This document shows, one piece after another, positions 41,635 through 57,513 of a stretch of 64,000 nucleotides of DNA (the first letter of the stretch is position 1; the number at the start of each line of letters is the position of its first letter). The notes under the pieces are model-generated. The model did no database searches. It was given only the letters and a program-made list of their open reading frames with translations, and had not been told where the DNA came from. The stretch is from Unio delphinus. Its lineage: Eukaryota; Mollusca; Bivalvia; Unionida; Unionidae. The position numbers and the translations under genes are program-made. Location: the NCBI GenBank assembly GCA_029339505.1, contig JAQISU010000123.1:5507501-5571500 (forward strand). The letters run 5' to 3'.

Positions 41635-41653
41635 GCCGTTATATAATATAATT

Positions 41654-41836
41654 ATGGATCTATATTGTGTGAAGTGTAGGACGCGTACTGGCACAAATGA
41701 CTTGACGACGATTACAACGAAAAATAATCGATCAGCGCTTTCTGGTAAATGCGTACAATGTAGTACAAAGAAATTTAGATTTACTTCCACGAAACCTTTA
41801 AAAAAAAACGAGGAGGTGATATTGCAGCCAAATTGA
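41654..41836 (+). CDS. small zinc-ribbon (DUF5679-like) ORF
   Basis: 60 residues starting MDLYCVKCRTRTGTNDLTT, with CVKC near the N terminus and CVQC about 33 residues later, then KKFRF. This is the four-Cys ribbon of DUF5679-like proteins. It ends in a Lys-rich run encoded by A9 (41800-41808), after which this frame stops within ten codons. The -1 frame from the A9 leads without a stop into the PLA2-like ORF. The two may be one protein made by slippage, or one gene with an indel. In some viruses such ribbons precede PLA2-like domains (recalled from family knowledge, not checked). Confidence 0.75.
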   Translation: MDLYCVKCRTRTGTNDLTTITTKNNRSALSGKCVQCSTKKFRFTSTKPLKKNEEVILQPN

Positions 41837-42168
41837 CAAAACTCCCAGGAACACCGTGGGCAAAGTATCCAGGAGAAAAGCACCTTCCAGGATATAGCTA
41901 CTGTGGACCGGGAACACGATTAGATATCAGACTTGATGATCAAAATCAGCCCCGACCCGGCGAGTATCCAATAAACGCTATTGATAAGGCGTGTCATGCT
42001 CATGATGTCGCTTATAAAAGCAGCAATCTTCAACATAGACATCTCGCAGATGTAAAATTAATTCATGCGTTAAATGCTATTCCTGATAAATCCTTCAAAG
42101 AAAAGTTGGCTTCTTGGTTGGTAAAATCTGCTATGAAGGGTAAATTGATGTTAGGTGCTGGTAATTGA
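41809..42168 (+). CDS. phospholipase A2-like virion protein (parvovirus VP1u-type)
   Basis: From about 41809 the frame reads RGGDIAAKLTKLPGTPW, then LPGYSYCGPGTRLD (Ca-binding loop), DKACHAHDVAY (His-Asp active site) and LADVKLIHAL. These are the signatures of the short viral PLA2 family, thought to help virions leave endosomes. There is no ATG before the catalytic motifs in this frame; the conventional frame would need a TTG at 41833. That supports expression as a -1 fusion with the preceding zinc ribbon through the A9 run. The C terminus is helical and ends MKGKLMLGAGN. The TGA stop overlaps a perfect 16-bp palindrome. Confidence 0.85.
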   Translation, partial: RGGDIAAKLTKLPGTPWAKYPGEKHLPGYSYCGPGTRLDIRLDDQNQPRPGEYPINAIDKACHAHDVAYKSSNLQHRHLADVKLIHALNAIPDKSFKEKLASWLVKSAMKGKLMLGAGN

Positions 42169-42183
42169 AAATGCTAGCATTTT
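42168..42183. terminator. palindrome at PLA2-like gene end
   Basis: AAAATGCTAGCATTTT is a perfect 16-bp palindrome whose first base is the last base of the TGA stop. The integrase ATG follows at 42187. It may mark a transcript end, by analogy with the hairpins at gene ends in some large DNA viruses (inference). Confidence 0.5.
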
Positions 42184-42186
42184 AAT

Positions 42187-43143
42187 ATGGAATCTATTTA
42201 TTATTCTCCGAGAGGATACTGGAGAGGTTACGCAGCAATTAATAAACTCGCTAGCGCATCAAAGGTGAAAAAAACTACAGCGGCAAACTGGTTATCTAAA
42301 CAGGCAATATGGCAAATTTATCTACCAGCGCCTAAACAAATTAACTATTCGCATTTTGATGTTACAACACCTAATGAAGTTCATCAAGCTGATATACTAT
42401 TTCTGCCGCATGACAACGGTTACAAATACGCGTTAACGTTAGTTGATATTGCAAGTCGATACAAAGAAGCAGAACCGTTAAAAACAAAATCATCTACTGA
42501 AGTAGCTTCTGCATTTGAGAGGATTTATCGACGAGGTCCTCTGCGCTGGCCAAATCTGTTACAAGTTGATCCTGGCAAGGAATTTCAAGGTGTTGTTACA
42601 TCTACGATGAAACATCATAATGTCGCCATCAGACGAGGACACACTGCGCTACATCGCGATCAGGCAATTGTTGAACGGTTTAATAAAACCCTTGCTGAGC
42701 GGTTATTCGGATATCAATACGCAAAAGAATTCATCCAGGATAAACGATCCCGTGAATGGGTCAAGAGATTACCAGCTGTGATTACCGCAATCAATAATGA
42801 GATTACTAGAACAATTAATATGAAACCTGTCAACGCTATTAAGAAGGCGTCTATCAAAATGGAAATCCAAGGAATTTCACAAAAAGATTTCAAAGAACCA
42901 ATTCTTGGTAGTAATGTCATTGTAAGGTACTTATACGAACCAGGAGAGCTTGAGGGTGGTAAAAAAAGAGCTACTGATCCTATTTGGAGTGTCACTACGC
43001 ATAATATATCCGGTATAACACGATCAACTGGTAGACCTCCAGTCTATAAACTGGATTCAACTGCTCCTCAGCGAGGATTTACACGCAAACAATTACAAGT
43101 GATTCCCGAGGATACTCAATTGCCACCGCGTGGTCTTAACTAG
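42187..43143 (+). CDS. Polinton DDE integrase (retroviral-type)
   Basis: 318 residues. The rve core has Asp69 (HQADILFL), Asp128 (LQVDPGKEF) and Glu163 (AIVERFNKTL), a DD35E spacing. The region from about 215 to 318 is a basic C-terminal domain with SNVIVRYLYEPGELEGGKKR and WSVTTHNISGI, typical of Polinton integrases, where a chromodomain-like fold is often found. The N terminus (WRGYAAINKLASAS, then NWLSKQAIWQIYLP) is a helical region in place of a clear HHCC zinc finger. The enzyme inserts the element and makes the target duplication. It is convergent with the polymerase gene; the stop codons overlap by a few bases around a small palindrome. Confidence 0.95.
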   Translation: MESIYYSPRGYWRGYAAINKLASASKVKKTTAANWLSKQAIWQIYLPAPKQINYSHFDVTTPNEVHQADILFLPHDNGYKYALTLVDIASRYKEAEPLKTKSSTEVASAFERIYRRGPLRWPNLLQVDPGKEFQGVVTSTMKHHNVAIRRGHTALHRDQAIVERFNKTLAERLFGYQYAKEFIQDKRSREWVKRLPAVITAINNEITRTINMKPVNAIKKASIKMEIQGISQKDFKEPILGSNVIVRYLYEPGELEGGKKRATDPIWSVTTHNISGITRSTGRPPVYKLDSTAPQRGFTRKQLQVIPEDTQLPPRGLN

Positions 43144-46100
43144 CACCTAAGGTGCTGTCACCCCGGCGTCTATTACACTCAAGACAGGTCAACCTCACAT
43201 TGTTTCTGACATGACCGAGATTGTTATCTTTTCTATCTACGGTGAATTGGCGAGGATCTTTATCCGACCAATTCCAACTCATTATACAATTACAACTCGC
43301 GCAGTGATTGTTCTGTTGTTGCTTTAGTGTCTTAATTAATTCAGCATCAATGTCAAATTCTCTTTTATTTTTTTTATCCTGTTGTTTATAACCAGAGAGT
43401 TTTTTTCTGATTATATTATCATCGGTGTGTATATTACTTATTGTATTGTCATTATCATTAACCACAATTCTTCGAAGTTGGTTTATTCGCCGTACTCTGG
43501 ATACTGCGAGATAAACTAAATTTGACCACTCAATATGATTATCTACTATCCAAAGAGTTGTATCGGATATAGTCAATCCCTGTGAAGAGTGTATTGTTGC
43601 TGCATAACCTAACGTCCATGGGGATTTATCAGCACCTAATGCATCTTTAACGACGCTGATATCAACCAGCACAATATCATTTAATACTAAATTCTGCTTT
43701 TGTTGTTGTCCAGGAATGTCAACGTCGATATTCTGCTTTCGTGTATCCTTAGGTCTATAACAGAGTGGTACTGGAAGCGTTGCAAATTTTTCTTTATGTA
43801 GCGCAAACAACTTCATCTGAAGTGCGTCTCTGACTATTTTTCTACTCGCGATTATTAAATCATTTGGCTTCCACATTTCCCAAAAATCATTCATGGGAGT
43901 TTCTGAAATTATTTCACGCGCTATTTCACATTGGATTTTATCCGGTTGTAATCTAATTAGCGCTTTGAATTCTCGTAATTGTTCATCAAGTGATCTATGG
44001 TCGGTATTAATCTCTTCATAATAATCTACAAATCCTTTTAGCCATTCATGTGGAGATCCACCAACAAATGGCTGCGGTTGGCCGTGATCCCCGCACATGA
44101 CGACTTTTGTGTTTTTTGTCAACAACCATGATAGAAATGTCTGTAATACTGTCAACGATATAGTACATACTTCATCAATGATTATTACATCAGGAATGAA
44201 TTTATCGCCCATTCGATCAGGAGTCCATGTATCGCCTTTCCATCGAAAGAAGCTATGATAAGTACAAGCTTTTACTCCACGCGCTATCATCTCTCTGGCG
44301 AGTCTGTGAGTTGGTGTTAACACAATCATGTTAGAAACGCTAGCGTTTCTACGAAATAATTCGATTGCACGAGTTGTCTTTCCTGATCCACCACAGCCGT
44401 TTAAATAAACTGTCTTGTATCTACAAATCGGATCGGATACAGGTGGTGCAGTAGAAAATTCTTCAGAAATATTATCTATATTTCTACAAATATATTTATC
44501 ATCCATAGCAACATCTGCGGATTTACAATACTCATGTAGTGTTTCTTTTTTAAACCTCCAATTCCCCCACGCTTCCTTAGGATCTGTGAATTTAGCTACA
44601 TCTGATTTGTATTTCTCATGGATATACATCGAATCAGTAGCTACTCTAACCGCGGTATTAGGAAATCTATTTATCATCGAGAATAGATTAATACAAGAAT
44701 AGGCTAGCATAGAACTTCTCAATTGTGTGTATTGACAACTTTTTCCATCACAGTAGGTAACAACCGTACCTAGTTTCTTACCATTTCGAAGGACATCATC
44801 TACCCAAACATTATTAGTTCCGCTCGCAGATTTGTAAGCTTCCTCATCTAATTCCCCTGATAGAAAAGCATTCTTACGGGTTACAAATTTCCCTTTTTTT
44901 ATTAAATCAGATATTATGAAATTGTATTCTTCATCGTCTATGATTAATCTCGAAGAATATTTTGCATTGTCAAATCTTCCACCTTGAGTGAATTTACCGA
45001 TTATTTTTCGTCCGAGATCTTTAGCCTCTCTATTACTACCTTCGAATAATTTCTTAGACCAATCTATGATTTGTTCCTCGCTGAAATTCTTCGAATTTCC
45101 ATCTAGAAATTGTTTTCGTTGTTCGTTAATTATTTTTTCGAGATCGGGTTTTGGTAACCAAACATCTTTCTGAGCGTTATAACAAATAATCGCTTCACTG
45201 ACAATTAACGATATTAGCATACCACAATCGATCATATACCGCAATAGCACAATTGGCATCCACGCTTTTTCATACATATGTCTACCAAGCCAAAGATAAC
45301 TACACGGATGTAACCCTGTAGCTAATTCGAATGATATCACACGAGCGAACCCGGTTAAATCAAAATCAGGCAATGGACCATTAATCGCAACACGAGTCAT
45401 TTCATGTGTGGGATGTCCAAATCGTTTGAAGTACTCAGAGCATTCTCCATATCCGAGAAAACTTCCAGGATAACACGCGGATATATCAATTGAAATCATA
45501 CCATCACGTGAGTATTTCGTATTCCACAATCCTCCATGACCAAATTCGACGCAACTCAATTTCACGTCCTCCAGAAAATCACTTCGTGTTGGGCGCCATG
45601 AATTCTTTTCTCTTGCGAAGTGAGCTACCACTGATGGAATAGTAAAACTATCCGTAAGTAGTTTTTCTGTAGAAATGCTAGTGTTTCCTTCTAAATACTC
45701 ATTAGCGATTTTTCTCATTCTATTATCTAATTCTTCAGTTCGATATAATTCACCATTTGGTTTTACAAACTGATCAAATCCTATTTCCGGATCCTCATTA
45801 CTCCTGAGTAACCATACTGACACAGGGTCGTCTTTGGTTAACGCGTGAATAGCATCAAATAATTTCTCTTCATAGAAACCATCCCAAGAAAATTCTTTAG
45901 GAATATATCGAACAGTTCTTTCTCGTGGAAATATATTTACCGCGGGTGTCCACGCGTGTTTGTTATGATCGATAATTTCAATTGGAGCTCCTCGCGATTG
46001 ATATTTTGGTTCGTATAATACTTCTCCGGTTATTGTCGCTACCGATATTGGAAATTTTAATAATGCTTCTAATTTAGCTATATCGGAAATCCTTGCTCCA

Positions 46101-46765
46101 TGTTGATTCACTGTTAGTTCCCATTCGGTTATTTTTTTTCTTCGTAGATCAGTTAATTTGTTTCCCCGGGATGCATTTGTGAAGTGTTCTATTAACCGTG
46201 TTGCTACACAATTAAGTGGCAAAGCCACTGATGATGAAAACATCGGAGCTAGTTTTGCAATATTAGGATTATTATTTATTGGATATAACCCATACACAAC
46301 TGCTGTTACAGGGTAAGATTTCTCATAGTATGGTTTGTCAATTCCAGTTAGAATTCCTGGTTTGGAATCTCTACTCACAATAACAGTTTTTTTATCCTTA
46401 AGGATTGGGTCAAATTTATCTCTGATAATCCATTCACCTTCCTCTTCGATAATAAATTTTATTCTAAAAAAATACCTCCGTAGAAATTGCTTTGCAATTT
46501 CACCAAGGTGTGAAAGTATCACAGCTGCTCTTATATCATTCATAGTAGCATCAATTATGGGTATATTGACATCTTCATCAATAATTCGAAATGTCGACCA
46601 CGTATGAGATGCTCCATCACGCTTAAACTCATTAAAACAGTCGCTGATTTTACTCAATAGTGGTTTATCATCTACTAGACTTTTAGGTATATCAGAGATT
46701 CTATCGAGATTAAATCTAGCATTTTTCCAAGGCTTAATTTTCGATAATCTCTTGAATCCTTTCAT
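43136..46765 (-). CDS. family-B DNA polymerase fused to SF1 helicase and HNH
   Basis: 1209 residues. Residues 1-410 are N-terminal sequence with no recognisable exonuclease motif (no FD/ET-type box). PolB motifs follow: A at 426-435 (IDISACYPG), B around 579-596 (REAKDLGRKIIGKFTQGG) and C at 707-714 (RVATDSMY). Next comes an SF1 helicase: Walker A GCGGSGKTT (790-798), Walker B IIIDE (861-865), GDHGQPQ (892-898), ATIHSSQG (1056-1063) and YLAVSRVR (1085-1092). Residues 1154-1201 form a CxxC...TVDRKDN...NNVRL...CLECN domain of HNH nuclease type. Polinton polymerases are normally protein-primed PolB with an exonuclease. The fusion and the missing exonuclease are atypical. It is divergent from the Cys-rich gene at 46809. 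Confidence 0.92.
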   Translation of the reverse strand: MKGFKRLSKIKPWKNARFNLDRISDIPKSLVDDKPLLSKISDCFNEFKRDGASHTWSTFRIIDEDVNIPIIDATMNDIRAAVILSHLGEIAKQFLRRYFFRIKFIIEEEGEWIIRDKFDPILKDKKTVIVSRDSKPGILTGIDKPYYEKSYPVTAVVYGLYPINNNPNIAKLAPMFSSSVALPLNCVATRLIEHFTNASRGNKLTDLRRKKITEWELTVNQHGARISDIAKLEALLKFPISVATITGEVLYEPKYQSRGAPIEIIDHNKHAWTPAVNIFPRERTVRYIPKEFSWDGFYEEKLFDAIHALTKDDPVSVWLLRSNEDPEIGFDQFVKPNGELYRTEELDNRMRKIANEYLEGNTSISTEKLLTDSFTIPSVVAHFAREKNSWRPTRSDFLEDVKLSCVEFGHGGLWNTKYSRDGMISIDISACYPGSFLGYGECSEYFKRFGHPTHEMTRVAINGPLPDFDLTGFARVISFELATGLHPCSYLWLGRHMYEKAWMPIVLLRYMIDCGMLISLIVSEAIICYNAQKDVWLPKPDLEKIINEQRKQFLDGNSKNFSEEQIIDWSKKLFEGSNREAKDLGRKIIGKFTQGGRFDNAKYSSRLIIDDEEYNFIISDLIKKGKFVTRKNAFLSGELDEEAYKSASGTNNVWVDDVLRNGKKLGTVVTYCDGKSCQYTQLRSSMLAYSCINLFSMINRFPNTAVRVATDSMYIHEKYKSDVAKFTDPKEAWGNWRFKKETLHEYCKSADVAMDDKYICRNIDNISEEFSTAPPVSDPICRYKTVYLNGCGGSGKTTRAIELFRRNASVSNMIVLTPTHRLAREMIARGVKACTYHSFFRWKGDTWTPDRMGDKFIPDVIIIDEVCTISLTVLQTFLSWLLTKNTKVVMCGDHGQPQPFVGGSPHEWLKGFVDYYEEINTDHRSLDEQLREFKALIRLQPDKIQCEIAREIISETPMNDFWEMWKPNDLIIASRKIVRDALQMKLFALHKEKFATLPVPLCYRPKDTRKQNIDVDIPGQQQKQNLVLNDIVLVDISVVKDALGADKSPWTLGYAATIHSSQGLTISDTTLWIVDNHIEWSNLVYLAVSRVRRINQLRRIVVNDNDNTISNIHTDDNIIRKKLSGYKQQDKKNKREFDIDAELIKTLKQQQNNHCASCNCIMSWNWSDKDPRQFTVDRKDNNLGHVRNNVRLTCLECNRRRGDSTLGAS
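43142..43156. terminator. palindrome between convergent integrase and polymerase genes
   Basis: AGCACC-taa-GGTGCT, a 6-bp stem with a 3-nt loop. It encodes the last residues of the polymerase (S-T-L-G-A-S) and lies next to the integrase stop, so it could end transcription on both strands (inference). Confidence 0.45.
44333..44350. repeat. in-gene CTAG palindrome (polymerase-helicase)
   Basis: AGAAACGCTAGCGTTTCT is a perfect 18-bp palindrome translated as R-N-A-S-V-S (residues 806-811), just after helicase motif I. The identical 18-mer occurs in the protease gene at 53905-53922, read in the same codon phase. Confidence 0.9.
45083..45099. repeat. in-gene triloop palindrome (polymerase)
   Basis: GAAATTC-ttc-GAATTTC, a perfect 7-bp stem, translated on the minus strand as part of G-N-S-K-N-F-S (residues 556-562). 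The same DNA sequence occurs at 50597-50613. Confidence 0.9.
45672..45687. repeat. in-gene CTAG palindrome, slightly degenerate
   Basis: GAAATGCTAGTGTTTC, one mismatched pair, translated on the minus strand as G-N-T-S-I-S (residues 360-365) in the same phase as the other CTAG palindromes. Confidence 0.75.
46215..46229. repeat. in-gene triloop palindrome
   Basis: AGTGGC-aaa-GCCACT, within the N-terminal region of the polymerase (residues 179-184). Confidence 0.7.
46483..46501. repeat. in-gene triloop palindrome, 8-bp stem
   Basis: GAAATTGC-ttt-GCAATTTC, translated on the minus strand as E-I-A-K-Q-F (residues 89-94). A shorter relative, AAATTGC-aaa-GCAATTT, is intergenic at 49129-49145. Confidence 0.85.
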
Positions 46766-46808
46766 ATTAATAATTAAAACAAGTATTTAAATAGAAAATT
46801 TTTATATA
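46766..46808. promoter_or_regulatory. divergent AT-rich promoter region
   Basis: A 43-bp gap between the divergent ATG codons of the polymerase (46765) and the Cys-rich gene (46809). Both ATGs are directly preceded by AT-only blocks (ATTATTAAT on the polymerase side, TTTTTATATA on the other). See the finding on start-abutting TATA-like blocks. Confidence 0.5.
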
Positions 46809-47138
46809 ATGAATCATTGCAAATGGCTTATGATTGGATCAAAGACTCCGTGTAATAAATCATGTAGAAATGAATTCTGTGGGTATCATATGCAGAGTGT
46901 GAGAAACGGTTCGGAGGGACCTCTACCATGCTTGCATTGTGGGGTAGGTGTAAGAGGCAAGTCGCAGTTATGCATTAATTGCGGGGGTAAGCGTTATAGA
47001 GAGTTAAAACGTTATTATGACAAGCGAAGAATCAAAAATCCTGACGACGTCAATGACAAAATCATAAAAACTGCTCAAGATTACTTAGGCAGATTTTCCA
47101 ATGTTATAATTCAGCCAATTAACGAATTAGACAAATAG
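46809..47138 (+). CDS. Cys-rich zinc-finger protein, 109 aa
   Basis: The N-terminal half has C4, C15, C19 and C24 with H27, a possible CCCH/CCCC finger. Next is a zinc ribbon C41-x2-C44 with C55-x2-C58 (CLHCG, CINCG). The second half is basic and helical (RYRELKRYYDKRRIKNPDD). ATATA directly precedes the ATG. A DNA-binding or regulatory role is plausible but not shown. I do not recognise a named family. The stop (TAG, 47138) is followed 16 bp later by the homing-nuclease ATG. Confidence 0.75.
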   Translation: MNHCKWLMIGSKTPCNKSCRNEFCGYHMQSVRNGSEGPLPCLHCGVGVRGKSQLCINCGGKRYRELKRYYDKRRIKNPDDVNDKIIKTAQDYLGRFSNVIIQPINELDK

Positions 47139-47153
47139 ATATATTATATATAA

Positions 47154-47639
47154 ATGAACCAAGAATTTCAAAGACATCCTGTTATTAAAAATTACGAAGC
47201 TTCTAGTGATGGTGTTGTTAGACACAGTAAAAATAGGAAATCTGTTGGGCGGGATAATGGTATGGGTTATTTGATATTTAAAGCTGGAGGGAAAATGTAT
47301 CTCAATCACCGTTTCGTTTATGAAGTGTATAATGGATTAATCAAGGATGGTTTTGTTATTGATCATATTGATTCTAATCCCAAGAATAACAAATTGAACA
47401 ACCTTCAAGTTATTTCTCAATGTGAAAACACAAAACGAGGAAGAACTGGGAAATACTCGAAAATTGCTAGACCTGTAAGATCGTTTAATACTGACACGGA
47501 GATGGTATTTCAATCAATGTCAGAAGCTGGTAAGTATTTCGATATTCACACCTCCTCGGTACAAAAAGTAGCAGAAGGAATTTATAAGACCGCTTTTTCA
47601 AAGCGTTTTAAAAACAAAATTCAGTTTGTTTATGTATAA
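47154..47639 (+). CDS. HNH homing endonuclease-like protein (NUMOD type)
   Basis: 161 residues. FQRHPVIKNYEASSDGVVR resembles a NUMOD4-type start. Then come HRFVYEVYNG and FVIDHIDSNPKNNKLNNLQV (HNH core with D-H and two N residues). The C-terminal SMSEAGKYFDIHTSSVQKVA is a NUMOD1-like helix-turn-helix DNA-binding segment. Such free-standing nucleases drive homing in phages and large viruses. Finding one beside the polymerase gene in a Polinton suggests acquisition from another virus, or a role in competition between co-infecting elements (inference). The ATG is preceded by ATTATATATAA. Confidence 0.88.
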   Translation: MNQEFQRHPVIKNYEASSDGVVRHSKNRKSVGRDNGMGYLIFKAGGKMYLNHRFVYEVYNGLIKDGFVIDHIDSNPKNNKLNNLQVISQCENTKRGRTGKYSKIARPVRSFNTDTEMVFQSMSEAGKYFDIHTSSVQKVAEGIYKTAFSKRFKNKIQFVYV

Positions 47640-47743
47640 TTTGCATTGGAAATTGCTTCGTGAAATTGTGAAAGAATTTCCATTGAAAATCTTCAATTTT
47701 GCAATTTCACATGGGAGATAACTCCGTTAGGTATAACGCGTGT

Positions 47744-47760
47744 GAAATCCATAGGATTTC
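47744..47760. terminator. triloop palindrome downstream of homing nuclease
   Basis: GAAATCC-ata-GGATTTC, a perfect 7-bp stem, about 100 bp after the homing-nuclease stop. The same arms with loop ttc occur in the terminal repeats (56841-56857), and AAATCC-ata-GGATTT ends the protease gene. Confidence 0.4.
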
Positions 47761-48015
47761 CACCAATGACAGAGTTACGGATCTTAAACACGGAAACGCT
47801 AGTGTTGGAAAATCTTCGATTTTTCATTGGCTGTTATAATTAAATAAATCTGAACAAAACACAATCAATTTTGTCTTTTTTCAAGTATTAACAGAACTGT
47901 TTTATAAACACGTCGTATTTAAACATTTTTTTTAATGTCTGTTTTAAGTATTATATGTGTTTTCAACGTTGTCAGTGATCGCTAATAAACAAACAAATAA
48001 TTACAATCACTACAC

Positions 48016-48237
48016 CTATTTTATATCACCTCGTCGTAATGAGTGTATATATACAAATTCGTCTTTATTATAATTGGGCATTAGCCGAAATTCAAGTGTA
48101 AACAAAACCACACCGTCACACGTGGTATGAACGTTATTATTGACATTCAAAACCAAAGTTTCGATTTTGCGGTTTTGTTTACACTTGAATGTAGAATAGC
48201 CCGCGTCATCCATTGTCATTGAAATCAATTCATTCAT
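48016..48237 (-). CDS. possible small protein, 73 aa
   Basis: The only minus-strand frame of note between 46.8 and 57 kb. It starts MNELISMTMDDAGYSTFKCK and has no recognised domain. The ATG lies in the first copy of a 59-bp repeat, so leader and start are triplicated upstream. It also contains both arms of a perfect 20-bp inverted repeat, which could make the frame incidental. Confidence 0.35.
   Translation of the reverse strand: MNELISMTMDDAGYSTFKCKQNRKIETLVLNVNNNVHTTCDGVVLFTLEFRLMPNYNKDEFVYIHSLRRGDIK
48090..48190. repeat. 20-bp perfect inverted repeat, 61-bp spacer
   Basis: ATTCAAGTGTAAACAAAACC (48090-48109) is the exact reverse complement of 48171-48190. Confidence 0.9.
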
Positions 48238-48378
48238 TGTTCACCTATAATCTATTGTTGTACCGTCGTCATTGTCATTGAAATCAATTCATTCATTGTT
48301 CACCTATAATCTATTGTTGTACCGTCGTCATTGTCATTGAAATCAATTCATTCATTGTTCACCTATAATCTATTGTTA
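48211..48378. repeat. 59-bp direct repeat, 2.8 copies
   Basis: Units start CATTGTCATTGAAATCAATT at 48211, 48270 and 48329. Each contains ATTCATTGTTCACCTATAATC. Read on the minus strand, every copy has an ATG in the same context as the start of the 73-residue ORF, so this looks like a repeated promoter/leader. Confidence 0.93.
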
Positions 48379-48625
48379 TGTGTTTGTCGGTTAACCGTTG
48401 AGCGCGCTGCTTGATGTATAAAACACCAAGGGGGTTTAAAACGGTAAATGTGCCGTCGTCATTCATTATATATAATCATAATCACCTATAATCGCATTAA
48501 GCTTCTGGGTATACTAAGATGATCAACACCTTAGTGTATCCAGAATTCATTTTAAAATACTTTGTATTTTTAATACTTTGTATTTGAAATACTTTGCATT
48601 TAAACAAATATATTTTTATATATAT

Positions 48626-48994
48626 ATGAATATTGAAAATCTCAAATTGATTATTATTGAAATCAACAAGTTGAAGGATGAAAATATAAAATTATGTTCA
48701 GGTTTGGATTGTGATCAAATTATGACCAATTTCGAGGATATACAATTTGCAGAACAGACAGGAAAATATGTCCTATCTAAAAAATATTTTTTAATTAAGA
48801 ATATCCAAAAGCTTATACGTGAGAGCTTAGTAAATACTGAAGATGTTAATGTCTTCGTACCATTATGTAGCATCGTTGAACGTGTACGTAAGCAATTAGG
48901 ATTAGAATATGAACAAAAGAGACTTATTAATTGTAAAGTGAGACAATTAAAAATGTTAATGGAAAACTCTGAAGGTGATGAACCCCACGCGTAG
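48626..48994 (+). CDS. uncharacterised Polinton protein, 122 aa
   Basis: Starts at ATG 48626 (MNIENLKLIIIEINKLKDEN), right after TTTATATATAT. The frame is open upstream without an ATG. Predicted all-helical and Lys/Glu/Leu-rich, with an N-terminal amphipathic segment and a C-terminal basic helix (RVRKQLGLEYEQKRLINCKV). I recognise no family. A regulatory or structural role is possible. Confidence 0.6.
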   Translation: MNIENLKLIIIEINKLKDENIKLCSGLDCDQIMTNFEDIQFAEQTGKYVLSKKYFLIKNIQKLIRESLVNTEDVNVFVPLCSIVERVRKQLGLEYEQKRLINCKVRQLKMLMENSEGDEPHA

Positions 48995-49169
48995 AGAGCC
49001 TCCTTTGTTTGTATAACCAGTACGGTATGAGGAAGTAAAATTATGTGTGTAACAACAAGGAAGTATTAAAATGATTTGCATTTTTAGGTTAGTGATTTCT
49101 TTCGAAATGCTTTGGATTTTTTAATTAAAAATTGCAAAGCAATTTGACAATAGTAATACTCTTTTAATA

Positions 49170-50255
49170 ATGGTAGGAGAATCATTAACAACGAGATTAG
49201 CTAGAGAAAGACTTGAAGCTCTTAAGAAAATATTACCCCTTCGTGATAGAATCCGCGAAAAACTTCAACAGCGGCAATTATTTCAGACTGACTTCACAGA
49301 GGATACAGAACAACTCTTCAAACCTATTGTTAGTGCAACTGAGGGTGTGAAAACAGCAATCTCTAAACAAGAAAGCTCGCAAAAAGAGTCCTTTCTCCCT
49401 GTGTTAGAGAAAATATCAAAACGAACTAAACAAACGAAAAAATCATTAAAAACACTTCCTGGTGATATAATAACTGCTGCAAGACGACAAGAAGAACAAC
49501 AACGAGAACTTCAGGAAGAAATTGAACGATTAGGTGATGTTGATATTTCCTCACTAGAAACGCAAGCATTTCCACCTGAAGAATTTCAAGAACAACAACA
49601 ACAAGAAGAAGAAGAAGAGGGAGCTGTTTCAAAAGAGTATTATTCTCCTGAAAATATATTTACAGTTGATGCGTTAAATACAATCAGAAATATCCCAACA
49701 CTTGCTGAATTAGCTAAATTTACCAAAGACAACGTTAAAAAAGTGAAGAGAGTTAATTATTTAAAAGACGACACAGCTAAGGATTTTATAAAGGGTTCAG
49801 AAGTTTGGGCAAATAAGGTGTTTTTAGCAAACAAGAGGAAAACAAAAATCACAAAAGAAATAAAATCTGATTATAACCAATTTCTAACTATGGTAAAGGG
49901 GATCACAGTACCACCACCAGTATACACAGCAGACCCAATCCCTGATGAAATACAAATAATGGCAGAGGCTGATTCTAAGAAGGGTGCAACTGGTACAACT
50001 AAAAAAAAGGGTAGTGGTTTAGTTGGAAACTCTTCGAGTTTCTGTCCCGGCAATATTCTCGGTGATATAGCACGATTAGAAATACTTGTAGGAGGAAAAC
50101 GAGCCGGAAATAACTCACCAGAAATAATCAATGAAGCAGCTGATATCTGTAGGAGGTTATTTCAAGGTGGTATCATGGATATTGCAACATATAGAGATTT
50201 CATTGAGGAGTTAGCCGAAAATTCTTCGAATTTCTACGGTTATCATAGTGACTAA
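49170..50255 (+). CDS. coiled-coil Polinton protein (virion-gene neighbour), 361 aa
   Basis: Residues 8-135 are helical and Arg/Lys/Glu/Gln-rich, with a strongly acidic Gln/Glu stretch near 140-150 (EEFQEQQQQEEEEEG). A Lys-rich helical middle follows, then a short Gly/Lys linker and a conserved-looking C-terminal block (DIARLEILVGGKRAGNNS and then ADICRRLFQGGIMDIATY). That C-terminal block is common to a protein in many invertebrate Polintons, adjacent to capsid genes (recalled, not checked). Function is unknown; a scaffold or minor virion role is plausible. Two triloop palindromes lie inside the gene (50026-50042, 50217-50234) and its stop sits in the loop of a third. Confidence 0.7.
   Translation: MVGESLTTRLARERLEALKKILPLRDRIREKLQQRQLFQTDFTEDTEQLFKPIVSATEGVKTAISKQESSQKESFLPVLEKISKRTKQTKKSLKTLPGDIITAARRQEEQQRELQEEIERLGDVDISSLETQAFPPEEFQEQQQQEEEEEGAVSKEYYSPENIFTVDALNTIRNIPTLAELAKFTKDNVKKVKRVNYLKDDTAKDFIKGSEVWANKVFLANKRKTKITKEIKSDYNQFLTMVKGITVPPPVYTADPIPDEIQIMAEADSKKGATGTTKKKGSGLVGNSSSFCPGNILGDIARLEILVGGKRAGNNSPEIINEAADICRRLFQGGIMDIATYRDFIEELAENSSNFYGYHSD
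50026..50042. repeat. in-gene triloop palindrome
   Basis: GAAACTC-ttc-GAGTTTC, a perfect 7-bp stem, translated as part of G-N-S-S-S-F-C, the same phase as 50217-50234 and 50597-50613. Confidence 0.88.
50217..50234. repeat. in-gene triloop palindrome
   Basis: GAAAATTC-ttc-GAATTTC, translated E-N-S-S-N-F, eight codons before the stop of the coiled-coil gene. Confidence 0.88.
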
Positions 50256-50279
50256 TGTCACTGGAAATCCTACGGATTT
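50247..50279 (+). terminator. two consecutive hairpins at coiled-coil gene end
   Basis: AGTGAC-taat-GTCACT (50247-50262) carries the TAA stop in its loop. It is followed at once by AAATCC-tac-GGATTT (50265-50279). Confidence 0.55.
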
Positions 50280-50310
50280 TGCGATTAGATAAATAGCAAT
50301 TGAATAGAGA

Positions 50311-50841
50311 ATGATCATACACTACAACCATGATAAACCAACTAACGTCTACGTGGTAAACTCACGATTACCAAAATACCGAGTATACTATGGAGATGGT
50401 CTCGGTAATACTATAATGGGATTATTTTCAAGAATGGCTCCAAAAGTGGCTCCATTTGCAAAACAGGCAGCAATGAAAGCAATTGATGTTATCCGAGATA
50501 AGGGTATTAACACTGTTGGTGATCTTGCTAGTAAGGCATTTTCAGCCGCTCGGGATAAACTAACAGCGCTAGTGAAATCACGAAGTGATTTTCGTAGAAA
50601 TTCTTCGAATTTCCAATCAAAACCTGGAAATGCTAGCATTAGAAACACTAGTGTTTCTGGAATGACTTCACTGCCATCTACTGCAGTAATGCCTACACAG
50701 GTTAGTAAAATAATAAATAACGCCGTGGATAAAAAACTACAGTCGTTAATGACTAACGCCCAGGATAACATAACAGCAAATATGATAGCAGGAAGTGGGC
50801 TTTCGGGAAGTGGTTTTAAGAAGATTCGCCGGAAACGTTAG
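50311..50841 (+). CDS. pVI/pX-like small basic virion protein, 176 aa
   Basis: Starts MIIHYNHDKPTNVYVVNSR. YYGDGLGNTIMGLF has a Gly-rich site like those cut by adenain-type proteases. An amphipathic Ala/Lys helix follows (MAPKVAPFAKQAAMKAIDVI), and the C terminus is GSGLSGSGFKKIRRKR. Such small basic proteins with a Gly-rich processing site lie next to capsid genes in Polintons and resemble adenoviral core or membrane-lytic proteins (family knowledge). The middle (residues 88-118) is almost wholly translated palindromes (50574-50658), so it may be a tolerated insertion region. Confidence 0.7.
   Translation: MIIHYNHDKPTNVYVVNSRLPKYRVYYGDGLGNTIMGLFSRMAPKVAPFAKQAAMKAIDVIRDKGINTVGDLASKAFSAARDKLTALVKSRSDFRRNSSNFQSKPGNASIRNTSVSGMTSLPSTAVMPTQVSKIINNAVDKKLQSLMTNAQDNITANMIAGSGLSGSGFKKIRRKR
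50574..50658. repeat. cluster of four palindromes inside a gene
   Basis: In order: GAAATCAC-gaa-GTGATTTTC (50574-50592), GAAATTC-ttc-GAATTTC (50597-50613), AATGCTAGCATT (50629-50640) and AGAAACACTAGTGTTTCT (50641-50658). All four are translated within the 176-aa protein without breaking its frame. Confidence 0.92.
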
Positions 50842-51535
50842 AAATATTTATTTGAACAGGATTTCCAATTATGATAGTTATTGTAGAAACACTAGTGTTT
50901 CTAATATTTGTGTCAGAATCACTTGTGATTCTATTTATTTGAATAGGATGCTCAGTTGTTATGGTTATTGTAGAAACACTAGTGTTTCTAATATTTGTGT
51001 CAGAATCACTTGTATCAGAAACATTAATGTCAGAATCACTTTTGATTCTACTAACGCTATCTTCATTATCAGAGATTTTCATCATCATTATTAAAATACA
51101 CCCAACTAAATATTTATTTTAAAAATTCTTTTCAAAATTCTTTAGAATTTTTATATTATAAAATATTTATAATTTGCTAATTTTGTTAGATTTTTTACTT
51201 TTTTTACTCATTTTTCTAGTGTTTTTACTCATTTTTCTAGTGTTTTTATGCAATTCATCGACAAAATTTCATGAAAATCGAGGATGAAAACCCAAGGAAT
51301 TCATTTAGAGAAAATCGATTTTGATCAGATTTTTTATCCTGTGAGGCTAAAATATGTTGTTGTCATCGAATTTTCGATGTTTTTTTTATTGATTTTGTAT
51401 TGTTTTTTAGCTAATCCGTCGACAAAATTTCATGAAAATCGATTTTCTCTAAATGAATTCCTGGGGTTTTCAATTCAAAATTCCTTCAGAATTCTTTCAG
51501 AATTTTTGATTTAGACCATCGGATATATAATAAAA
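50842..51535. promoter_or_regulatory. intergenic repeat region upstream of capsid gene
   Basis: About 700 bp. First part: two copies of a roughly 87-bp block, each with AGAAACACTAGTGTTTCT (50885-50902, 50972-50989) and AGAATCAC-tt-GTGATTCT (50915-50932, degenerate later). Second part: a 37-bp near-perfect inverted repeat (51286-51322 with 51435-51471) and a 22-bp direct repeat CGACAAAATTTCATGAAAATCG (51259-51280 and 51420-51441). A doubled TTTTTACTCATTTTTCTAGT motif lies at about 51200-51245. The short ORF at 51284 lies across the inverted repeat and is not convincing. GGATATATAATAAAA precedes the capsid ATG. Confidence 0.6.
51286..51471. repeat. 37-bp inverted repeat upstream of capsid gene
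   Basis: Left arm 51286-51322 (GAAAACCC then GGAATTCATTTAGAG and AAAATCGATTTT). Right arm 51435-51471 is its reverse complement with one or two differences. The arms are separated by about 110 bp. Confidence 0.88.
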
Positions 51536-52966
51536 ATGTTCAAACAAAACCCTGATGTTGCATTTGACATGGAAGCCCCAGTACTTAAAGATACTTCTGT
51601 ACGTGATTATCAATTTTTTGCTTATCACGCAGTACAACCTGATCTTCGTGGAAGAATTGAACTCCAGGTTCATGATACCAGTAAATACTTTTTACCCGCT
51701 GAAGCTTTTATTGAAGTCGAAGGTGAACTTTTACAGCATGATGAAACACCATATGCAGATGACCCAACTATCCGAGTTGGTTTTGTTAACAATGGCATCA
51801 TGGCTTTATTTGAAAGCGCAAGATATCTCATTGATGGAAAAGAAATCGAATCTATTGAACGTGAAGTTGATGTTGCTACGGGAATAATCGGGTTAGCGAG
51901 ATATTCTGATGATTATACTAGATCGGCTGGTCCATCTATGATGTTCTCTAAGGATATCACTGATCACGCTGAGCACATTCCGTATATTAAAATACATACT
52001 CCAAGAGCTACTGCAGTTGATCCACAACTTGATACCCCTGAACATAGAGACAGACCAGCTGCTACCTTTGATATTCTCGGAAGCGTTAATAATAATTTCA
52101 ATTTAGGGTTTGCAACACGAAAAGGAACATTGCAGGGAGAGCGTCGACGGTTTTCATATGCGATTCCGCTCCATCACATATTTGGATTTTGTAGAAACGT
52201 CAGAAAAGTTATTTATGGAGTAAAGCATACTGTAGCACTAGTGAGAAAGGGTACTGATAATAATGCAATCTGGCGCGCTGCTGGCGTTGCCGCTGGTAGA
52301 GTAAATTTATCAAAACTAACATTATGGATGCCAGTGTTGACTCCATCATTGTCAGTAGAACCGCGGTTGCTATCATTTATGGATCAAGGGGGAAAGAGAT
52401 TATTAAGCTGGTTGACAACGTCCACAGATACCATGGATTCTAATATTGATGGTACATTTACATGGCATTTGGCAGCACGACAGGGTGTTTCAGCTCCACG
52501 GCATATTTTTATTGCGCTACAGAATAGAACGCGATTGGATAATCAAGAACGTTCCCATATGATATTTGATCAAATCGGATGTAATGAAGTTTCACTAAAA
52601 ATAAACGGACAACAAGAACCATCAGAGGATATACAACTTAATTACGGTCAAAACCATATTGCACGAGTTTATCATCGATTGCTATCATTTATGGGACGTG
52701 ATCAAAATGTAGATACTGGTCTACAAATATCACAATTAGATTTTAAAGGTCTGTATCCGATTTATTACTTTTCGTTGGAACATCTTGACTTGATGAAACA
52801 GTCCGTAGTTGATATACACTTCCGAGCTCATGTAAACCGTCCTGCTGGTGCTGGTGCTATTGCTAATTATAGAGCGGTTGCTGTCATTCTTAGTGATAAA
52901 TCAATGATACTCGAAGGTGTTGGTGGACGAATGAGACTAGTAGATGCACCAGTGGAAAATCTGTAA
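51536..52966 (+). CDS. Polinton major capsid protein (double jelly-roll type)
   Basis: 476 residues, starting MFKQNPDVAFDMEAPVLKD. The length, beta-rich pattern and conserved-looking blocks (FLPAEAFIEVEGELL; FFSLEHLDL-like YYFSLEHLDLMKQSVVD; RRRFSYAIPLHHIFGF) fit the Polinton/adintovirus hexon-like major capsid protein. The fold assignment is inferred from family and position, directly upstream of the pVI-like gene and protease. No stop or frameshift is seen. The ATG follows TATATAATAAAA. The stop codon lies in the loop of a perfect palindrome (52955-52973), so the last codons (V-E-N-L) are set by the palindrome. Confidence 0.88.
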   Translation: MFKQNPDVAFDMEAPVLKDTSVRDYQFFAYHAVQPDLRGRIELQVHDTSKYFLPAEAFIEVEGELLQHDETPYADDPTIRVGFVNNGIMALFESARYLIDGKEIESIEREVDVATGIIGLARYSDDYTRSAGPSMMFSKDITDHAEHIPYIKIHTPRATAVDPQLDTPEHRDRPAATFDILGSVNNNFNLGFATRKGTLQGERRRFSYAIPLHHIFGFCRNVRKVIYGVKHTVALVRKGTDNNAIWRAAGVAAGRVNLSKLTLWMPVLTPSLSVEPRLLSFMDQGGKRLLSWLTTSTDTMDSNIDGTFTWHLAARQGVSAPRHIFIALQNRTRLDNQERSHMIFDQIGCNEVSLKINGQQEPSEDIQLNYGQNHIARVYHRLLSFMGRDQNVDTGLQISQLDFKGLYPIYYFSLEHLDLMKQSVVDIHFRAHVNRPAGAGAIANYRAVAVILSDKSMILEGVGGRMRLVDAPVENL

Positions 52967-52973
52967 GATTTTC
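52955..52973 (+). terminator. palindrome holding the capsid-gene stop codon
   Basis: GAAAATCT-gta-AGATTTTC: an 8-bp perfect stem with a 3-nt loop. TAA (52964-52966) spans the loop and first stem base. Confidence 0.6.
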
Positions 52974-53029
52974 TTAATCCAAAATTCTTTAAAAATGACT
53001 CGCGATTTAGAATCAATCTATTTTGTATA

Positions 53030-53491
53030 ATGTCGTATAGTAATATCAATGTTACGTTGACACCTGGTCAAATAAAAAAATTACAATCCAAATCAGCTAA
53101 GCAATGTGGAACCACAATAACGCTGAAACCTAATCAAATGAATGGCGGAGGAAATAAACTATCGCTGACGAAAACTCAAACTAATCATTTTAATAAAGCG
53201 CTGAAAGAAAAAAAGGGAGTTCAGGTTACTCTTTCTACAAGTGCGATCCGTAATATGGAAAAGACTGGTGGTATATTCCCGTTGTTAGGGTTGATTCCAG
53301 GGTTGATTGCCGCAGCAGCCCCAGCGGTAGCGAAGGCAGCAGCGTTAGGAGCTATTGGTACCGCAGCAGGAATGGCGTTGAAAAAGGCAACTGGAAAAGG
53401 GTATAAAAAAAAAGGAAAGGGTCTAAGACTACCAGGAACCCCGAGTTCATGGTACAGCGGAAAGGGTCTTCGAATTCCAGGAACGATATAG
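53030..53491 (+). CDS. pVI/pX-like minor virion protein, 153 aa
   Basis: The N-terminal half has two similar segments (NVTLTPGQIKKLQS and GVQVTLSTSAIRNMEK; LSLTKTQTNHFNKA). Then come GGIFPLLGLIPGL and a long Ala-rich hydrophobic stretch (IAAAAPAVAKAAALGAIGTA), and a basic Gly-rich tail in which GKGLRLPG and GKGLRIPG repeat. Polintons commonly encode such an N-x-x-L-T/S-x-x-Q protein next to the capsid gene; membrane-lytic or core roles are inferred from its similarity to adenoviral pVI/pX. TTGTATA precedes the ATG. Confidence 0.78.
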   Translation: MSYSNINVTLTPGQIKKLQSKSAKQCGTTITLKPNQMNGGGNKLSLTKTQTNHFNKALKEKKGVQVTLSTSAIRNMEKTGGIFPLLGLIPGLIAAAAPAVAKAAALGAIGTAAGMALKKATGKGYKKKGKGLRLPGTPSSWYSGKGLRIPGTI

Positions 53492-53502
53492 TTCAGGAAC
53501 CG

Positions 53503-53940
53503 ATGGTTCCCATGTCCAATTTTGATTTAATTGATACCGCTAAAAAATTAAAAATAAAAAATTTCAGAGGGGTTTTTATGAGAGATCAGTTACCGGCACA
53601 ACCAAATGATGTTGAAACCGGTATTATTAATTTAGATAACAGCTCCGGACCTGGAACTCACTGGGTTTGTTACGCAATTGATCCACGTGGGATTATTTAT
53701 TTTGACTCATATGGATTAGCGCCGCCGAAAGAATTTATGCGTTATATTAAAACCCTTCCAATGAAGACTTGGTATTCTACGTTACCAACACAAACAATGC
53801 TTGATCCACCAATATGCGGTAATGAAGTATTAAACGTACTTGATGCTATATCCAAAAGATTTTCGAAACCACCTCATATAGTAGTAAATGAGTATACTAG
53901 CGGTAGAAACGCTAGCGTTTCTCGGATTAGAAATCCATAG
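53503..53940 (+). CDS. adenain-type cysteine protease
   Basis: 145 residues from ATG 53503. The frame opens at 53449, but the earlier part overlaps the previous gene, and 53512 is another possible start. The catalytic set is His53 (GTHWVCYAID), Asp68 (IIYFDSYG), a Gln (about 97) and Cys105 (PPICGNEVL), the layout of the C5/adenovirus maturation protease. It should cleave virion precursors at Gly-rich sites such as those in the neighbouring small proteins (family knowledge). The last dozen residues (G-R-N-A-S-V-S-R-I-R-N-P) are encoded by two palindromes, 53905-53922 and 53931-53945, so the C terminus appears to be added by them. It has no AT-rich block at its ATG, unlike its neighbours, so it may share a transcript with the upstream gene. 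Confidence 0.9.
   Translation: MVPMSNFDLIDTAKKLKIKNFRGVFMRDQLPAQPNDVETGIINLDNSSGPGTHWVCYAIDPRGIIYFDSYGLAPPKEFMRYIKTLPMKTWYSTLPTQTMLDPPICGNEVLNVLDAISKRFSKPPHIVVNEYTSGRNASVSRIRNP
53905..53922. repeat. in-gene CTAG palindrome (protease C terminus)
   Basis: AGAAACGCTAGCGTTTCT, identical to 44333-44350, translated R-N-A-S-V-S in the same phase. Confidence 0.92.
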
Positions 53941-53945
53941 GATTT
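53931..53945 (+). terminator. palindrome holding the protease stop codon
   Basis: AAATCC-ata-GGATTT. TAG (53938-53940) spans loop and right arm. Confidence 0.55.
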
Positions 53946-53970
53946 GAATAATAAAAAGATTTCTATAATA

Positions 53971-55005
53971 ATGATTGATATTTGGGGACGACCTTTATCA
54001 TCGCTGAAGAAACCTGATAGTGGAGTTGAAACCGTTGATAACAAGGATATTAAAAAATTAATCGAAGATGAAATATCCGAAATATTAAACCTAGCAAATG
54101 TTGATCCTGGTGAAATAGTTGTATTTCAAGATCGTCAGGGTAAATTGAAAAGTAGTAATATCTCTCTTAATGATATTTTGGTTAAACAACGAGACGCAGT
54201 AGAGGATACTATCGTGTTATTTTCTGATGAGGGTAAACTCAAACCAGGTGTACTTGTTTCAACAATTACGGATAAATTAACAACATATGATAACACAGTG
54301 AATTCATTAAAATCGCTTAATGATAAGTATGATGATCATATAATTGTATTTGACCAGTTTACTGCATTACAAAGAAATATAGTTGACAAAATTGATAAAC
54401 CCCTGCTAGAATTTTTTGGAAATCCACCAGTGACTGAACCAAAACTCACCGTAATAAAAGATTCTATGTTAGAACTAGCAACTCTTCAATCCGAATATGA
54501 AAAACACACGAAACTATTTATGACGTTTCGTAAAAACCTCATGGATAAGTTTATTGGGAGCCCATTTGATAAAATTGAAATAACACTTCCCGATATTAAA
54601 AAATCCATCGATGAACTTAAAACATTCAACAACGCAATAAAGGATGATGCAACGAAGATGATAAACATTATTGAAAAAGTAAAAATTCCTCATAATAAAT
54701 CTATCGTCAACAACGTAGTATACACGATTCAACACGGATCATATACGTGGACACCTACAGATAACATTTTAGACATAACCGCAGCAGTCAAGGGTATTTA
54801 TCGATTAACAATAGTATCACCGATTAAATCTCAGTTTGAAATATCATCAAGTAGTTCATTTGGAGTCAATAATACGATATCAACGATCATCGACAAGAAT
54901 ACAATTGAACAATTCAAGATAACGAATACAGATGATAATCTAGCCAAGGCTTCAGTAACGTGGTACGTAGAATTCGTAGCGGATTTAAGTAAACAGTTAA
55001 ATTGA
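53971..55005 (+). CDS. possible fibre-like or attachment protein, 344 aa
   Basis: The start MIDIWGRPLSSLKKPDSGV at ATG 53971 is chosen because the longer frame has no ATG and CTATAATA precedes this one. N-terminal beta-rich part, then a long helical region (about residues 90-245, Asp/Lys/Leu/Ile-rich with heptad-like spacing), then a beta-rich C-terminal domain (VVYTIQHGSYTWTPTDNILD and ASVTWYVEFVAD). A shaft-plus-head plan with a short conserved N terminus suggests a capsid spike or fibre (inference). I do not recognise a named family. Confidence 0.55.
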   Translation: MIDIWGRPLSSLKKPDSGVETVDNKDIKKLIEDEISEILNLANVDPGEIVVFQDRQGKLKSSNISLNDILVKQRDAVEDTIVLFSDEGKLKPGVLVSTITDKLTTYDNTVNSLKSLNDKYDDHIIVFDQFTALQRNIVDKIDKPLLEFFGNPPVTEPKLTVIKDSMLELATLQSEYEKHTKLFMTFRKNLMDKFIGSPFDKIEITLPDIKKSIDELKTFNNAIKDDATKMINIIEKVKIPHNKSIVNNVVYTIQHGSYTWTPTDNILDITAAVKGIYRLTIVSPIKSQFEISSSSSFGVNNTISTIIDKNTIEQFKITNTDDNLAKASVTWYVEFVADLSKQLN

Positions 55006-55029
55006 AAATACTAACGCTTTTAAAATAAA

Positions 55030-55587
55030 ATGACTCCATCATCGAATCAGTATCGCTATGATCAAGTCAAAGAGTTTCAAACTAAACTCAGTTCTCTCTG
55101 TGAAGAATATCAAATAAAAATCAAAAAATACAAACGAAGAATAACCACAGTTGATATCACCGTGTACTCGGTGTCAGGAGTAATCACTGCTGCTGGAATA
55201 ATACTATCTTCGGTTACAATGATTGCTCCGGTCGTAGTTCCAATCGCTATTTCCGCAGTGGCTACAATTGCTGGTATATTAACTGGGATCACAAAAAAAC
55301 TATCATCGTGTAGCCAGAGTAAACTACATGATTATTTAATTAAATATCATATTGCATCTGCCGGTTACTCGCAATTATCCTCGTTGATATCATCGTCGTT
55401 GGATGACACAACAATATCAGATAGCGAATTTTCAACTATGGCTCAATTGTATAAATCAACAATGCTGAAATTAGAGCAGAATAATAATAATAATGTCGTC
55501 GCAAGAACTACTTCAACAAATAGTAACAAATACAACACCGGTGAAAACAAGCACGATATCAATAACCTCAACACGTCCCGAATTTAG
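55030..55587 (+). CDS. two-TM membrane protein, possibly SLATT-like, 185 aa
   Basis: An N-terminal helix (QVKEFQTKLSSLCEEYQIKI) is followed by two hydrophobic segments (about residues 41-60 and 63-85, ITAAGIILSSVTMIAPVVVP and ISAVATIAGILTG). A further helical region has HIASAGYSQLSSLISSSLDD. The order helix, two TM, helix is that of SLATT-domain proteins, a link I can only suggest. The last 32 codons overlap the next gene in another frame. TTTTAAAATAAA precedes the ATG. Confidence 0.65.
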   Translation: MTPSSNQYRYDQVKEFQTKLSSLCEEYQIKIKKYKRRITTVDITVYSVSGVITAAGIILSSVTMIAPVVVPIAISAVATIAGILTGITKKLSSCSQSKLHDYLIKYHIASAGYSQLSSLISSSLDDTTISDSEFSTMAQLYKSTMLKLEQNNNNNVVARTTSTNSNKYNTGENKHDINNLNTSRI

Positions 55588-56815: not shown

Positions 56816-56840
56816 GGACTTGATCAAATATTTAGTTAGT

Positions 56841-57489: not shown

Positions 57490-57513
57490 GGTCTGTTCAC
57501 CTCCTCTGCTGCT

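Follow-up and report, generated by a model that had tools for sequence, protein, structure and literature searches.

Palindromes that enter genes are known from Rickettsia and Wolbachia, and palindromes that spread are known from organelle genomes. To our knowledge, the route by which the Rickettsia palindromes multiply is not settled. For the GC clusters of yeast mitochondrial DNA (mtDNA), endonuclease and RNA-mediated routes have both been discussed, and the authors of that account regard the route as still unsettled and ask for more evidence (PMC4478555). Here we analyse a stretch of 64,000 nucleotides, hereafter the window, from the bivalve Unio delphinus (positions 5507501-5571500 of contig JAQISU010000123.1, our C131, assembly GCA_029339505.1, which totals 2.505 Gb in 1246 contigs). 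At 40571-57513 the window holds a Polinton-like provirus, flanked by a 5-bp direct repeat, AAACT, in which short palindromes occur within and between genes, and the presence of these palindromes varies among the provirus copies of this one genome. We think it probable that they are a family of ultra-short hairpins multiplying within one Polinton-like provirus lineage by template switching, with selection for reading frame and for a polar linker acting on those in genes.

Family palindromes, defined as 16–18 bp with at least 6 of 7 arm pairs, were scanned for in 40700-57000 with 200 dinucleotide shuffles as the null for abundance, and an unconstrained palindrome scan was made besides. The provirus holds 36 of them against a mean of 4.6 in the shuffles (standard deviation 2.2, maximum 10), and 19 with all 7 arm pairs against 0.5 (maximum 3). 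Their density is 2.2 per kb in the provirus, 0.42 in the left flank (1-36 kb), 0.64 in the LINE-like region and 0.29 in the right flank. The unit is about 15–21 bp long, with a half-arm GAAAYNC and either a TTC, GAA or TTT loop or a CTAG centre, and its main forms are GAAA-YN-CTAG-NR-TTTC and GAAA-YNC-(TTC, GAA, TTT, others)-GNR-TTTC. A search of Rfam gave no match to the window at the gathering score. All the sites named in the original prediction are present, within a set larger than the one it listed. The individual sites discussed below are these, L numbers here denoting provirus copies:

40954-40970: hairpin GAAATCC-GAA-GGATTTC in the left terminal inverted repeat (TIR), with a partner in the right TIR at 56841-56857
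44333-44350: palindrome AGAAACGCTAGCGTTTCT, reading RNASVS, in the polymerase-helicase gene
45083-45099: hairpin GAAATTC-TTC-GAATTTC, reading GNSKNF
45366: site empty in the window; +18 bp with GAACTGCTAGCAGTTC in three copies (L033, L034, L038) and +36 bp in a fourth (L027), with GAAACGCTAGCGTTTC nested inside the GAACTGCTAGCAGTTC unit
45672-45687: imperfect palindrome GAAATGCTAGTGTTTC, reading GNTSIS; adjoining it at 45688, a +21-bp hairpin GAAAATTCTTTAGAATTTTC in two copies (L035, L036)
46215-46229: hairpin AGTGGC-AAA-GCCACT, not of the GAAA family, at gene offset 536-551 and at a three-residue insertion, VAL
46483-46501: hairpin GAAATTGC-TTT-GCAATTTC, reading EIAKQF
50026, 50218, 50597 and 55983: sites of the second subfamily, reading GNSSSF, ENSSNF, RNSSNF and ENSKDF
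50626-50643: imperfect palindrome, reading GNASIR
50641-50658: perfect palindrome, reading RNTSVS
53905-53922: palindrome AGAAACGCTAGCGTTTCT, reading RNASVS, near the C terminus of the protease-like gene

As had been claimed, the palindromes at 44333-44350 and 53905-53922 are one identical 18-mer in genes on opposite strands, read as RNASVS in both. For the pairing test, sites were chosen by the outer motif GAAA-N8/9-TTTC alone, ignoring the inner bases. At the 15 provirus sites so chosen, which include one tandem duplicate (50973) and one TIR partner (56841), complementary bases stand at inner pair 5 in 13 cases, at pair 6 in 13 and at pair 7 in 14, and neither of the two sites in the flanks pairs. 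With the laxer ends [AG]AAA...TTT[CT], all three inner pairs form at 17 of 40 provirus sites and at 1 of 59 and 0 of 4 flank sites, counts that include overlapping registers. Thus the inner arm bases vary yet mostly stay complementary, which indicates that the hairpin is kept. Non-coding sequence makes up 2806 of 16013 bp, yet 16 of the 29 clear elements fall within it or at a stop codon (P=5e-6), an excess to be expected if most insertions into coding sequence are removed.

The host element is a Polinton in the broad sense, as originally proposed, since TIRs, an RVE integrase, an A32 packaging ATPase and a DJR capsid are all present. Its TIR arms comprise 317 nt at 100% plus 113 nt at 96%, and its genes encode a Pox_A32-like ATPase, an RVE integrase, a polymerase-SF1 helicase fusion, an HNH_3 protein, a DJR capsid and a protease-like protein. 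The provirus and the parts of it that bear on the palindromes are:

40571-57513: Polinton-like provirus with TIRs AGCAGCAGAGGAGG..., direct repeat AAACT at 40566-40570 and 57514-57518, ends inspected in sequence
43136-46765, minus strand: polymerase-SF1 helicase fusion gene, 1209 aa (Pfam AAA_19/AAA_30; 49 homologues), with palindromes at 44333, 45083, 45672 and 46483
47154-47639, plus strand: free-standing HNH_3 endonuclease gene (Pfam), a speculative candidate helper
47640-47840: intergenic palindrome cluster that differs from copy to copy
49170-50255, plus strand: 361-aa gene with hairpins at 49557 (degenerate), 50026 and 50218; its variable hotspot is the linker preceding CPGN
50311-50841, plus strand: 176-aa gene with stacked palindromes at 50575, 50597, 50626 and 50641, the first three varying independently among copies
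50816-51088, minus strand: 90-aa open reading frame (ORF) made largely of palindrome-type peptides, with RNTSVS twice and SDSD
51536-52966, plus strand: DJR major capsid gene (MCP), 476 aa (Pfam), its stop codon inside the hairpin at 52955-52973
53449-53940, plus strand: protease-like gene with a palindrome near the C terminus (53905-53922), another at 53930 that holds the stop codon, and a variable N-terminal site at 53490

The polymerase-like region of the helicase fusion, which gave no Pfam polymerase match, is presumably a polymerase, judging by its motifs. No Pfam PolB match was found among the window proteins scanned, and the provirus has no separate pPolB-sized ORF, the largest besides the helicase fusion being the 476-aa capsid. 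Because it has a polymerase-helicase fusion and no separate pPolB was seen, the provirus appears nearer to Tlr1-type Polinton-like elements, which likewise carry an RVE integrase and have an SF1 helicase protein in place of pPolB; the part of that account seen here makes no mention of palindromic insertions (PMC11071308). The protease-like protein has a weak, below-threshold match to adenovirus endoprotease. The right provirus end at 57075-57500 holds terminal repeat sequence in three tandem copies at a spacing of 136 bp. The HNH gene and its downstream spacer (47154-47840) show block differences in L014, L015, L029 and partly L026, as if swapped between copies.

A search with the helicase scored at least 38 provirus copies, and 64 copy fragments, 91.8–99.8% identical to the window, were compared with it: 29 copies over 41.6-48.3 kb (97.0–99.0%), 6 over part of the helicase gene (95.3–97.8%), 11 around the protease (91.8–99.4%) and 18 fragments over 49.9-51.2 kb (95.1–99.8%), the last being further pieces of proviruses among the 29. 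Whole hairpins are present in some of these copies and missing from others. Besides the insertions at 45366 and 45688, +17 bp with AGAAACACTAGTGTTTCT is found at 48127 in four copies, +15 bp with GAAATCTTCGATTTC at 53496 in 4 of the 11 protease copies, and +15 bp with GAAATACAAGTATTTC at 50038 in 3 of the 18 fragments, with a one-base variant in a fourth. Within the 176-aa gene, AAATCACGAAGTGATTT / GAAATCACGAAGTGATTT is absent in 6/18 (a net 15 bp relative to the window, and 18 bp between copies such as L062 and L058), AATGCTAGCATTAGA is absent in 6/18, and the right arm of GAAATTCTTCGAATTTC is absent in 8/18, where a half-palindrome stands at 50604. At 50839, 5/18 have +18 bp, and L059 has +36 bp with AGAATCACTTGTGATTCT nested in that same unit, while around 50300 one spot is taken by several different palindromes in different copies. 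The copies thus show directly that alleles can differ by a whole hairpin, that a few units recur exactly, and that nested palindromes and half-palindromes occur. The palindromes are distributed patchily on the gene tree of the copies, so the copies probably recombine, and both spread between copies and new insertion are likely.

A genome-wide search for the 18-mer AGAAACGCTAGCGTTTCT, which had been suggested with the original prediction, returned 930 sites, and its reversed control none. The 20 sites sampled all lie at positions homologous to 44333 or 53905 of provirus copies, so the 930 most likely reflect provirus copy number, which would then run to hundreds. The 20 of 930 sites examined give no sign that the 18-mer has spread through the host genome.

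Indels of at least 9 bp between copy fragments and the window were collapsed, and those less than 20 bases from a fragment end were dropped. Hairpins with arms of at least 6 bp are carried by 38 of the 68 remaining, whereas length-matched segments drawn at random from the provirus would give 5.4, a null that is conservative because the provirus itself is palindrome-rich; an earlier subset gave 17/30 against 2.3 expected. The net length of the hairpin indels is between 9 and 36 bp in 35 of the 38 and longer in the others. Both arms lie wholly within the indel (overlap 1.0) at 45366, 48127, 50573 and 50839, and the hairpin lies partly inside it at 41788, 50604 and 53490 (overlap 0.53–0.67). Inspection of the variable sites by eye, which was not systematic, found no recurrent target duplication.

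In annotated genes, hairpin indels are multiples of three in 19 of 21 cases, the two exceptions falling at the HNH and MCP stop codons, and outside annotated genes in 6 of 17. Five of those six are in the minus-strand ORF 50816-51088 and one is in a 67-aa ORF (41633-41836), so that the remainder, a post hoc count, is 0/11. The 90-aa ORF is open in 17/18 copy fragments despite several 15–18-bp indels (L060 was missed by the filter), and for this reason it is probably a real gene.

One codon phase, which reads N-x-S, is common to 10/13 clear coding elements (P=0.0016 under equal phases). Equal phase odds are no strict null, because an in-frame TAG bars one other CTAG-type phase; the remaining third phase would read more hydrophobic residues. 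The claim of a single peptide type in a single phase therefore holds as a strong preference, and its "always" does not, since 46483 (EIAKQF), 50575 (KSRSDF) and the degenerate 49557 (ETQAFP) differ. The tally omits the imperfect palindromes at 42862 (EIQGIS, other phase) and 44467 (RNIDNIS, same phase), with which it becomes 11/15, as well as the protease-stop element at 53930 (same phase); 54112, 46634 and 43142 were judged to be chance and stand outside it. The second subfamily, said to read N-S-S-N-F or N-S-K-N-F, does so at 45083, 50218 and 50597 and departs from it at 50026, and the related case expected near 55982 is the one at 55983. Phase-A peptides, listed from idealised palindromes, also occur in relatives: in 3/4 close helicases, 0/45 distant ones, 13/69 relatives of the 176-aa protein and 10/23 of the 361-aa protein. 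The occurrences in these groups number 3, 0, 19 and 12 against 0.4, 2.3, 2.2 and 0.7 in shuffled proteins, the matches in P0067, P0084, P0133 and P0135 being probably chance. Phase B is found in no relative, and phase C in 0, 0, 1 and 1 proteins of the same four groups.

Comparison with homologous proteins (P numbers) supports the view that the palindromes are in-frame insertions in variable linkers, absent from homologues and adding a small polar peptide. At 44333, the homologues covering the site, which do not include P0048 and P0049, are 3–4 residues shorter from Walker A to the conserved block that follows. At 46483, EIAKQF is about six residues more than P0001-P0003 have, and P0004 holds four residues there; at 46215, the insertion VAL is absent from the four close helicase homologues. 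GNTSIS and GNSKNF sit in linkers that are shorter in P0003, and P0001 has ENPSDF and ASIS near these places. Elsewhere in the helicase, P0002 reads GNASIS and P0004 RNASIS. P0050, 76% identical to the 176-aa protein, is without the stacked block NSSNF...GNASIRNTSVS and has GNSKDF near its own C terminus. In the 361-aa family, the linker preceding CPGN holds GNSKSFNASIS, GNSSSFNASVT, GNASVS or ENASVT depending on the member. In this linker the GNSSSF of the window is no longer than the corresponding stretch of P0118, where GSASIT is read. In the PolB-helicase, hairpins overlap 5 of 9 window-specific insertions of at least 2 residues (1.1 expected by random placement, P=0.003); of the five, two do not belong to the GAAA type, and the count excludes the imperfect palindrome GNTSIS.

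Protein relatives that carry an organism name are from the freshwater mussels Potamilus and Sinanodonta and, in the case of the helicase, from the sea slug Elysia and a Thiodiazotropha record from a metagenome-assembled genome. No close DNA relative of the provirus was found among the viral contigs or genome contigs searched, and there was no phage match. One viral contig with a single match at 26% identity (L004) was not used, and three with the 18-mer pattern (L001-L003) match neither the provirus nor its proteins. LINE-like ORFs (Exo_endo_phos, RVT_1) lie at 36064-40663, and the provirus looks inserted into this region, because the ORF at 40100-40663 runs into it. Farther away, a DIRS-like region at 4094-9595 has reverse transcriptase, RNase H and weak tyrosine-recombinase matches, with similar hairpin pairs around it at 3169-3209 and 10075-10115. 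Another palindrome, ATTATCCAGGATAAT, has six copies at 22833-23531, outside the provirus, and a long array of a 41-bp tandem repeat extends from 60622 towards 64000.

We favour multiplication of the hairpins by template switching. Replicating provirus DNA would expose hairpins, and the polymerase could switch template to another palindrome or to a complementary arm and so make new copies, for which a transposase would be unneeded. Switching of this kind could yield variable lengths, half-palindromes, and nested and mixed-arm forms. In genes, selection would retain mainly multiples of three and, in loops or at termini, may prefer the phase in which the unit reads as the small polar linker (G/R/E)-N-x-S-x-(S/F). 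The original suggestion of a mobile miniature element is supported insofar as presence differs between copies, though not in the sense of a transposase-mobilised MITE. A simple transposase fits poorly with the variable net lengths and with the failure to see any clear target duplication by eye. The partly included hairpins at 41788, 50604 and 53490 can be explained by template switching that copied an existing arm, or by the loss of an arm. Alternatively, a trans-acting nuclease, perhaps the HNH protein of the provirus, could cut at hairpins or insert them whole. Indels that contain both arms, identical units at distant sites and the position of the HNH gene next to a palindrome cluster would all suit such an enzyme, and intron endonucleases have been proposed for mitochondrial GC clusters (Lang et al. 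via PMC4478555). Half-palindromes with one arm already in place suit it less well, as do the variable lengths and the want of a recurrent target duplication by eye, and we consider this explanation unlikely.

Plain local inverted duplication by random template switching, with no element family, could account for CCTTGGTGCAACCAAGG at 41788 and GGAACCGATGGTTCC at 53490, which are not of the GAAA type and are partly built on flanking sequence. As a general explanation we find it quite improbable: unlinked sites share the same few sequences, most ends are GAAA...TTTC, such palindromes are rare in the flanking host DNA, and the exact GAAACGCTAGCGTTTC occurs at 44333, at 53905 and nested in L027. 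That the hairpins serve termination or polyadenylation at RNA 3' ends, as in Mimivirus and Marseilleviridae, would agree with the several that lie just past or across stop codons (40954, 50264, 52956, 53930, 56841) and with the intergenic excess, which is paralleled in Marseilleviridae (PMC5413956). On the other hand, a stop codon is found within 30 bp of 4/16 (P=0.21), within 60 bp of 6/16 (P=0.11) and within 100 bp of 8/16 (P=0.05), many hairpins are in mid-gene, both loop orientations are seen, and presence differs among copies, which makes this explanation very improbable. If the palindromes were binding sites for a dimeric protein, produced by point mutation, this would explain the constant half-site GAAA and the roughly constant spacing. 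Such a site would not need inner pairing, and for this reason we favour the hairpin; the units moreover arrive as indels and not as substitutions, and we give this possibility hardly any credence.

Several points weigh against template switching followed by selection in genes. A length divisible by three is also seen among non-hairpin indels, some of them fragments of complex changes, in 9/11 cases outside genes and 12/19 in genes, and this weakens simple frame selection. All events came from one pairwise aligner, and complex regions were split into pieces; the evidence from relatives is at the protein level only. The 20 sampled 18-mer sites are a non-random set from C1-C8, the first contigs listed, and most of them have no partner some 9.5 kb off; the genome-wide count covers the 18-mer alone and not other family members. 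No enzyme or intermediate has been observed, so that we infer the template-switch step, and the occurrence of one identical 18-mer at two unlinked sites would also be compatible with transposition or gene conversion. Finally, the differences in presence may reflect gain or loss, and given the patchy copy tree, recombination may be moving palindromes too.

More tentatively, these palindromes may be self-propagating mobile DNA of about 15–21 bp, among the smallest known, in an animal DNA provirus, their content being a hairpin and a peptide-safe phase; possibly helped by the HNH protein, they would build linkers and the small gene at 50816-51088 (minus strand) largely from their own copies. We point out that many near-identical copies in one genome amount to a natural experiment in which sites within frame-selected genes are found empty, half, full or nested, so that birth, loss, phase preference and target choice can be measured. 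The provirus palindromes also show how linker peptides may be acquired by a lineage of viruses.

Among described systems, the Rickettsia and Wolbachia palindromic elements (RPE and WPE) are alike in lying within ORFs with the frame intact and in their possible insertion hotspots (PMC3767692, PMC4224334). The likeness to Rickettsia that had been drawn is one of manner, the provirus palindromes being hairpin-forming and inserted in frame into unrelated genes, and not of membership: RPE are bacterial and 100–150 bp long, and orthologues carry insertions at the same locus (PMC3767692), whereas here the unit is about 15–21 bp, copies differ within one genome, and that genome is not of the Rickettsiales but one of 2.5 Gb with LINE- and DIRS-like ORFs in the window. 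Small mobile repeats inside genes are also known as enterobacterial RU repeats, which are bacterial and 103–168 bp long (PMC2759123). We found no description of palindromic insertions in Polinton-like elements in the open-access literature at the level of search results. Yeast GC clusters resemble the provirus palindromes as short palindromes that differ in presence between related genomes and that merge and shuffle, but they are GC-rich, as in the 42-nt GC42, have a putative target duplication and reside in mtDNA (PMC4478555). The provirus palindromes share the presence/absence variation, merging and nesting of GC clusters and organelle repeats, but they are mostly AT-rich, often coding and on nuclear-sized contigs; those carrying provirus copies reach tens of Mb and are thus no organelle genomes. 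The short palindromic repeats of Volvox organelles form families of hairpins with 3–5-nt loops and insert palindrome into palindrome, but average about 50 nt (PMC2670323). The hairpin-forming elements of sponges are dispersed hairpin repeats described in intergenic mtDNA (PMC2800124). Nematomorph palindromes lie within genes and have complementary arms, and their authors discuss template switching, but they reach 284 bp and belong to mitochondrial genes (PMC6649704). The palindromes described here differ from the known cases in their size, in the type of genome that carries them, and in their polymorphism between copies within one genome.

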